A DNA stretch of 64,000 nt from Candidatus Woesearchaeota archaeon (GTDB lineage: Archaea; Nanobdellota; Nanobdellia; Woesearchaeales; GW2011-AR4). Position 1 is the first letter of the stretch; each line of letters opens with the position of its first letter. Location: contig JACPJQ010000004.1 of NCBI GenBank assembly GCA_016187465.1, positions 240,806-304,805 of the forward strand, read 5' to 3'. Both the position numbers and the translations under genes were made by a program. The notes below the pieces were generated by a model. The model was not told the origin of the DNA and did no database searches. It worked only from the letters and a program-made list of their open reading frames with translations. Positions 13,243 through 24,912 of the stretch are shown here, one piece after another.

Positions 13243-13296
13243 ATGCATACATTAAAGAAAATCTTTTAAACAGTCCTCATTTCTTTGGCTTTGAAT

Positions 13297-13391
13297 GGGC
13301 TGGTAGTTAAATCCGGCATAACGCACCCATGGCATGGGTGATCGCCAAAAAGCGACCCATCAGGCTCCGGGTTCAAATCCCGGCCAGTCCA
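13297..13391 (+). tRNA. tRNA-Ala(GGC) with intron after the anticodon stem
   Basis: Acceptor GGGCTGG/CCAGTCC contains the G3-U70 pair that defines tRNA-Ala, with A73. D stem GTTA/TAAC, anticodon stem CACCC/GGGTG with loop ATGGCAT (anticodon 13331-13333), T stem CCGGG/CCCGG. Between the anticodon stem and T stem are 26 bases instead of about 5. There GGGT pairs with ACCC (4 bp), flanked by 3-base bulges GAT and ATC: a BHB motif. Cutting after the second bulge base removes 13342-13360 (19 bases). This leaves a slightly long variable loop (ACAGGCT), so exact ends are tentative. CCA is not encoded. Confidence 0.82.
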
Positions 13392-13404
13392 TTTTTAAAT
13401 TAAA

Positions 13405-23887: not shown

Positions 23888-24643
23888 ATGAAACAGGGAT
23901 TTTGGATTGTCGTTAAGGATATCATAAGGAAGGCAGATGTTATTCTGGAAATCCTTGATGCGAGAATGCCTGACCTTACCAGAAATAAGCGCTTGGAGCA
24001 GTACGCTGCGGCTTCGGGGAAACGGCTGATTCTCGTCATAAACAAGAAAGACATAATATCCGAGAATGCAGTCAGGAGCATAGAAAAATATTATTCGGGC
24101 CAGGATTATATTTTGGTATCCTCCAAGAGCCATAAAGGCGTCAGCAAATTAATAGGATTGATAAAAAACAAAGCGAAGAAGAGCGATTTGAAAGTGGCTT
24201 TTATCGGTTATCCAAACACCGGAAAAAGCTCATTGATAAATATTCTGTCTAAAGGCGGGAAGGCGAAAACAGGCCTGGAGTCCGGATTAACGAGGGGAGT
24301 GCAGCTGATTGCAGGCAAAGGAGGCCTTATGCTGATAGACACTCCCGGTGTGGTGCCTTACGAAGGCAGGGAAGAGGTATTATTAGGGTTGACATCTGCA
24401 ATAAGCCCGGACAAGTTAAATGACCCGGAATCTGTCGCATACGAGCTTCTCGGAATATTCAAGAAAAATAATCCGGCTGCCCTGGGGAAAGAGTATGGCA
24501 TTGACACCAGCTTGGATGCCGAAGAATTATTGCTGGAATTCGGAAAGAAGAGGGGCATGCTTCTAAAAAGGGGCATTGTTGACGAGAGAAGGGCTGCAAT
24601 TAAGCTCCTCACAGACTGGCATAATGGCAAAATAATGGTTTGA
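23888..24643 (+). CDS. Circularly permuted YlqF/YawG-type GTPase
   Basis: Ribosome-assembly GTPase family. The G motifs occur in permuted order: DARMPD and NKKD (G4) come first, then GYPNTGKSSLIN (G1) and DTPG (G3). The protein is 251 residues with a helical C-terminal region. It probably helps large-subunit maturation. It converges on tRNA-Ser(GGA), whose 3' end lies 8 bases beyond the stop. Confidence 0.93.
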   Translation: MKQGFWIVVKDIIRKADVILEILDARMPDLTRNKRLEQYAAASGKRLILVINKKDIISENAVRSIEKYYSGQDYILVSSKSHKGVSKLIGLIKNKAKKSDLKVAFIGYPNTGKSSLINILSKGGKAKTGLESGLTRGVQLIAGKGGLMLIDTPGVVPYEGREEVLLGLTSAISPDKLNDPESVAYELLGIFKKNNPAALGKEYGIDTSLDAEELLLEFGKKRGMLLKRGIVDERRAAIKLLTDWHNGKIMV

Positions 24644-24651
24644 GATTAAAA

Positions 24652-24912
24652 CGCCGGGACTGGGACTTTCAAATAATTATCTGTGTTAAGTCAGGCAACA
24701 AGCTGTGACTTGCTTGCGTTTTTACTCAAGCTCGCTCGTAACTCAATGCCTAGATGTCAGATGCATTATTTTTGAACCCAGATATCCTTTCGGAAACAAG
24801 CTGTCAGGCAGCTGCATGCGTAATGTTATGGAGCATGCTCGCTTTTCAACTTATTCCAGGCTTGCGCGATTTCCTGAATGGTTTGCCATTTACCAGGTTA
24901 CGCGATCCCGGC
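24652..24912 (-). tRNA. tRNA-Ser(GGA) with three introns
   Basis: On the minus strand: acceptor GCCGGGA/TCCCGGC with G73, D stem GCG/CGC, anticodon stem CAAGC/GCTTG with loop CTGGAA-A (anticodon 24855-24857), variable arm TCC-GAAA-GGA, T stem CTGGG/CCCAG. D-loop intron 24871-24891 (21 bases) is a perfect BHB: helix CCTG/CAGG, bulges GTA and AAA, inner stem AATGG/CCATT; it leaves loop AACCTGGTA. Anticodon intron 24803-24853 (51 bases). T-loop intron 24666-24770 (105 bases): helix TTCA/TGAA, bulges AAA and AGT, leaving TTCAAAT. Mature length is 84. A TTTATAAA box lies about 35 bases upstream. Confidence 0.9.

Follow-up and report, generated by a model that had tools for sequence, protein, structure and literature searches.

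The explanation that on balance probably holds for the tRNA-Ser(GGA) locus analysed here is that it is a working single-copy gene with three BHB introns in its transcript, that all three are spliced out, and that the intron in the T-loop goes on to act in trans by pairing with 16S rRNA, perhaps with a role in small-subunit assembly. At the centre of this explanation is a short core in the T-loop intron, overlooked by an earlier sequence-only reading of the same DNA, which is complementary to the small-subunit rRNA and which, to judge from its behaviour in related genomes, has very probably been conserved for that pairing.

The gene lies on the minus strand of the window, that is, the whole stretch of 64,000 nucleotides of DNA that was analysed, and is divided as follows:

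24652-24912, minus strand: tRNA-Ser(GGA) locus, 261 bases, with three BHB introns and a spliced RNA of 84 nt
24892-24912, minus strand: exon 1, 21 nt, comprising the 5' strand of the acceptor stem, positions 8-9, the 5' strand of the D-stem and most of the D-loop
24871-24891 (24870-24890 is equivalent), minus strand: D-loop intron, 21 nt, with BHB CCTG/CAGG and bulges GTA and AAA
24854-24870, minus strand: exon 2, 17 nt, comprising the 3' strand of the D-stem, the 5' strand of the anticodon stem and the loop CTGGAA with the anticodon GGA
24803-24853, minus strand: anticodon-loop intron (37/38), 51 nt, with a relaxed BHB
24771-24802, minus strand: exon 3, 32 nt, comprising position 38, the 3' strand of the anticodon stem, the variable arm, the 5' strand of the T-stem and TTCAAA
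24666-24770, minus strand: T-loop intron (59/60), 105 nt, with BHB TTCA/TGAA beside the T-stem
24652-24665, minus strand: exon 4, 14 nt, comprising position 60, the 3' strand of the T-stem, the 3' strand of the acceptor stem and the discriminator G

The extent of the locus, the position of the D-loop intron, the 84 nt of the mature RNA and the 51 and 105 nt of the other two introns had been proposed in the sequence-only reading, and every one of them holds. The structure of the gene and the presence of its introns are evident from the sequence itself. Once the introns are taken out, ARAGORN calls a complete tRNA-Ser(GGA) cloverleaf in which every stem is paired and which includes a variable arm and the discriminator G. 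The unspliced 261 bases give no ARAGORN call, and the locus is missed by the Rfam tRNA model. Together with the existence of relatives that lack individual introns, the cloverleaf confirms that this is a three-intron tRNA-Ser(GGA) in a DPANN archaeon.

A BHB-like structure can be read by eye at every one of the three splice sites, the anticodon site being relaxed. The D-loop BHB, previously described as perfect, does have a 4-bp central helix (CCTG/CAGG), 3-nt bulges and a 5-bp inner helix, but the outer helix adjoining the bulge is essentially missing. By the same inspection, the BHB of the anticodon intron has a U-U mismatch within its central helix, and the T-loop splice site is the best hBHBh' among the three introns. 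Fold z values were -2.26 for the D-loop intron and -3.49 for the T-loop intron.

A separate, uninterrupted copy of the gene had been named in advance as a finding that would tell against its use. On the genomic side, sequence searches of the 93%-complete assembly found no uninterrupted tRNA-Ser(GGA); the matches of the spliced sequence elsewhere in the genome are short tRNA-like pieces only, so there is no uninterrupted second copy among them. The neighbouring gene, convergent with the tRNA gene and 8 bases away (window 23888-24643), encodes a YlqF/RbgA-like ribosome-biogenesis GTPase, with a TIGR03596 match of 155 bits that falls under the cut-off of 208. The convergent arrangement recurs in two of the related genomes (G014 and G023). 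As a pointer to a ribosome-assembly role for the intron, this neighbour is suggestive at most.

BLAST matches to the exons of the gene were obtained in 32 of 59 relatives. In relatives, the homologous exons either are separated by the same introns or are directly joined, and the introns are thus not the product of chance. Most members of the genus have the D-loop intron (lengths other than 21 nt occur) together with introns at 37/38 (10-51 nt) and 59/60 (63-105 nt). The D-loop intron is kept in the genus and is cleanly missing from G001 and G003, and the 37/38 intron is missing from G001 and G009, so that G001 is without both the D-loop and the anticodon introns and G003 is without the D-loop intron only. 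The uninterrupted D-arms of G001 (..CCTGGTATTGCG) and G003 (..TCTGGTATTGCG) agree with the junction predicted here (..CCTGGTATCGCG). G024, G039 and G057 have no T-loop intron, their TTCAAAT being uninterrupted.

Other sites in the same tRNA are also used. Introns at about 29/30 occur in G020, G023, G031, G026 and G034, introns near positions 7-9 in G009, G019, G026 and G034, and a variable-arm intron in G023. The G023 gene (L030, G023:C31, minus strand) apparently has four introns (29/30, 37/38, variable arm and 59/60). With all four removed it gives a good tRNA-Ser(GGA) call by ARAGORN, in which the variable arm is shortened and weakly paired; because this arm is short after splicing, the boundaries of the fourth intron are uncertain. 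A survey of archaeal tRNAs recorded up to three introns per tRNA (PMC8450103).

Several tRNAs of the genome are interrupted, which makes the tRNA-Ser gene one instance of a wide pattern. In a partial survey by searches, just ten tRNAs in 1.62 Mb passed the Rfam cut-off, because several of the tRNA genes carry introns. Introns sit at 37/38 and 59/60 in tRNA-Ala(TGC) (L013) and in the D-loop of tRNA-Ile(GAT) (L012), and tRNA-Arg(TCT) (L015) has two; all three genes are ARAGORN-positive once spliced by hand and are missed or mis-called when unspliced. Three further tRNA-like loci of 149-169 bases (L014, L017 and L018) are apparently interrupted by at least one intron. In tRNA-Ala(GGC) (window 13296-13392, 97 bases), about 20 additional bases separate the anticodon stem from the T-stem and are probably a non-canonical intron. 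In the rRNA operon region, the 23S match (L112:2402-6121, minus strand) extends over 3720 bases against a model of 2987 positions, so there are probably insertions or introns inside it, and the 16S-23S spacer of L112, nearly 1 kb in length, has an apparent small ORF starting ATGACTGAAAATATAACC ahead of tRNA-Ala(TGC).

The three-intron tRNA is itself real and belongs to an already known class of multi-intron tRNAs. The sequence-only reading, in treating such genes as rare outside the Thermoproteales, overstated the case: more are present in the same genome, and they have been published for Thermoproteales, ARMAN-1/2, N. equitans and others (PMC4033280), as well as for three Asgard genomes in which 92-95% of tRNA genes are interrupted and over half have multiple introns (PMC11291895). 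As in the gene studied here, the tRNAs of these lineages have BHB introns both at 37/38 and at other, non-canonical sites, with up to three per gene (PMC8450103, PMC4033280, PMC11291895).

Unlike these lineages, the Woesearchaeota family has a single alpha-type EndA without broad-specificity loops. A three-unit or heterotetrameric enzyme had been expected; what the genome encodes is one alpha-type protein of 200 aa with both EndA domains present, and no further PF01974 match, either to a second subunit or to a fused three-unit protein, was found at E values up to 10. The Tyr-His-Lys positions are conserved across 20 family proteins. The protein aligns without gaps over the catalytic core with the M. 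jannaschii alpha4 EndA (1a79) and is shorter than the N. equitans protein (3iey_A) at the latter's insertion, and comparison with both shows that an inserted specificity loop (CSL/ASL) is absent. An EndA match is present in 30 of 36 family genomes and is nearly always single; a gene for RtcB is also present in the genome. Such loops have been blamed for the relaxed specificity of (alpha-beta)2 and epsilon2 EndA (PMC12397907, PMC4033280). Three possibilities are left: the alpha-type EndA of this family owes a relaxed specificity to some other feature, the splice sites are adequate for it as they stand, or a divergent partner escapes detection. The same genomes sit uneasily with the rule that EndA must be heteromeric or loop-bearing where tRNA introns are relaxed and multiple.

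The core of the T-loop intron and the structure predicted around it are placed as follows:

24684-24699 (24684-24703 including G-U pairs), minus strand: core GTTGCCTGACTTAACA, the exact reverse complement of nt 1089-1104 of the organism's own 16S rRNA
24692-24752, minus strand: predicted hairpin; the 5' half of the core forms its 3' strand, and its apical part varies between genomes
24684-24691, minus strand: predicted single-stranded ACTTAACA, the 3' half of the core, with an unpaired probability of about 0.9-1.0 in the organism's own intron

In 16 genomes from four genera of the Woesearchaeota family, the T-loop introns have the common core [TC]GTTGCCTGACTTAACA, the remainder of the intron being close to unalignable. 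The core with an upstream GAGC is restricted to one family among 353 genomes of the order. Its target is nt 1089-1106 of 16S rRNA, in the head of the small subunit, equivalent to E. coli 1088-1105 by a gapless match to the annotated E. coli 16S gene, and the transcript of the tRNA strand carries the antisense to 16S, so that the orientation fits pairing. Both the conservation and the complementarity can be read directly from the alignment: over 18 positions in 16 genomes (288 cells) there are 278 Watson-Crick pairs, 10 G-U pairs and no mismatches. Contiguous pairing of the organism's own intron with 16S extends over 16 Watson-Crick pairs, or 20 counting G-U; across the set, the Watson-Crick run is 15-19 in 15 of the 16 genomes, and the run with G-U is 18-23 in all of them. 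Independent changes in the core are few and are all transitions: G005 and G016 each have an A replaced by G, and one clade has T in place of C. Pairing survives every one of them through G-U. The target site is identical in G019, G020 and G022; with the 16S side invariant, two-sided covariation is absent.

Other family sequences that match the core exactly (G034 L076, G028 L079, G026, G022 and G019) were set aside as the 16S gene itself, and the single order-level match outside the family, in G086, as 16S antisense sequence. Complementarity to 16S is not shared by the introns at large, since the organism's own D-loop and anticodon introns, and its own tRNA-Ala(TGC) T-loop intron, have chance-level complementarity to 16S or 23S. 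T-loop introns without the core occur in G019, G034, G022, G032 (L044), G041, G008, G026, G027 and G058, and strong 16S complementarity was not found in any of these. In G019 and G022 the T-loop intron is retained and the 16S site is unchanged, with the core gone, so the core is not universally needed. Its absence from some members of the family means that it has been lost there, or was gained within the family.

An intron complementary to rRNA could in principle be a modification guide, box C/D-like or H/ACA-like, specifying 2'-O-methylation, pseudouridylation or another change within 16S 1089-1106. In Haloferax, the tRNA-Trp intron serves as a cis-acting box C/D guide (PMC7994747), fibrillarin is encoded in the genome, and CUGA and ACA triplets are present in the core. 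The arrangement of these elements makes such a guide unlikely here. The RUGAUGA C box is found in none of the 16 introns, even when they are read as circles, and the D-box-like CUGA is misplaced, lying inside the complementary stretch and not 3' of the antisense; on these grounds a box C/D guide was rejected. An H/ACA guide was rejected as well, since the antisense is continuous and not bipartite around a pocket, the internal loop has only about 2 nt per side, the ACA is about 6 nt from the stem, and no Rfam match was found at the locus at E values up to 5.

A simpler alternative is that this is an ordinary multi-intron archaeal tRNA in which the core is chance or inherited, functionless sequence. 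Multi-intron tRNAs are indeed widespread in some archaeal lineages, and some family members do without the core, but the way in which the core stands out from its surroundings leaves this explanation with a low probability. Pairwise identity is 0.96 in the core versus 0.91 in the tRNA exons of a four-genome sample, and in the intron flanks it is 0.78-0.79, near the 0.71-0.74 of shuffled flanks. One mononucleotide shuffle of the G020 intron got to 16, and the null was therefore redone with dinucleotide shuffles. In 800 of these for each of two introns, the observed pairing was never matched: the Watson-Crick maximum was 13 (observed 16) and the G-U-inclusive maximum was 17-18 (observed 20 and 23). 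The lack of any mismatch to 16S among the 288 cells likewise argues against a functionless core. Conserved complementarity beyond chance, the property by which an RNA that pairs with rRNA in trans would be recognised, is thus what was found.

There is also a small chance that the core acts in cis on the pre-tRNA, with binding of 16S rRNA or the pre-ribosome delaying or triggering splicing at the T-loop and so tuning the supply of tRNA-Ser(GGA) to ribosome number. The core does sit in a pre-tRNA, from a single-copy gene, that is unable to mature without removal of the T-loop intron. Nothing specific speaks against a cis action, beyond the prediction that the core and the BHB stem form distinct elements. 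A connection to 16S rRNA introns, in which the tRNA intron would be a derivative of, or a defence against, an element at position 1093, is highly improbable: the 16S target of the core (L049-L052, L131) includes E. coli position 1093, where 16S genes of Pyrobaculum, Thermoproteus and Desulfurococcales are known to carry introns (PMC4496867), but no intron interrupts that position in the 16S of the organism itself or of G019, G020 or G022, and a moved intron would bring sense, not antisense, flanks.

In the explanation that we prefer, that of an intron pairing with 16S in trans, EndA would excise the three introns and RtcB would ligate the exons. The excised T-loop intron would probably be circular, in keeping with the known circularisation of archaeal tRNA introns (PMC12558985), and would be the host of a small RNA pairing in the cell with 16S nt 1089-1106. 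Folded as circles, most of the introns are predicted to be closed by a stem (the inner helix of the BHB) and to form a hairpin with the 5' half of the core as its 3' strand, which leaves the 3' half of the core single-stranded over about 8-9 nt; the hairpin apex differs freely between genomes and is long in G000 and G003. From these predicted folds it is plausible that the single-stranded half of the core is a toehold for strand invasion of the rRNA. The single-stranded GACUUAACA would nucleate pairing with 16S, the neighbouring hairpin would then open, and a duplex of 18-23 bp would form. The likeliest role for such an RNA would be in small-subunit assembly, as a transient chaperone or as a checkpoint, by which tRNA splicing would be coupled to ribosome production. 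It is the target alone that points to small-subunit assembly, and we offer this role for the excised intron tentatively. That the excised, perhaps circular intron serves in this family of Woesearchaeota as a non-modifying rRNA chaperone at E. coli 1088-1105 is, similarly, a possibility to which we would give somewhat less than even weight. To our knowledge, no archaeal tRNA intron that acts as a non-modifying 16S chaperone has been described, and we know of no protein partner for the core-bearing intron. No published report of the 16S-pairing element, or of Woesearchaeota tRNA introns, was found in the open literature (subscription papers and preprints being outside this scope).

Small RNAs with a long, conserved complementarity to small-subunit rRNA are familiar from eukaryotes, where U14, U3 and snR30/U17 are rRNA-pairing snoRNAs of ribosome assembly. 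These are stand-alone or encoded in mRNA introns and have C/D or H/ACA elements, and no homology with them is claimed. The tRNA-Trp intron of Haloferax and Pyrococcus (a box C/D guide, sR50) is likewise an archaeal tRNA intron that is a functional RNA by base pairing (PMC7994747). It has C/D boxes and targets its own pre-tRNA, whereas the tRNA-Ser T-loop intron is boxless and complementary to 16S. The yeast fitRNAs are also excised tRNA introns, with an action in trans through complementarity (reviewed in PMC13247085). They are eukaryotic and target mRNAs for decay, whereas here the target is 16S rRNA.

Archaeal tRNA introns are mostly regarded as neutral or selfish. A 16S-complementary core preserved within an otherwise drifting intron makes this one a concrete candidate for an intron retained because it functions in trans, and such a function would account for the persistence of a costly interruption of the T-loop in a single-copy, essential tRNA. 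If the intron does work in trans, it would add a new type to the known helper RNAs of the ribosome.
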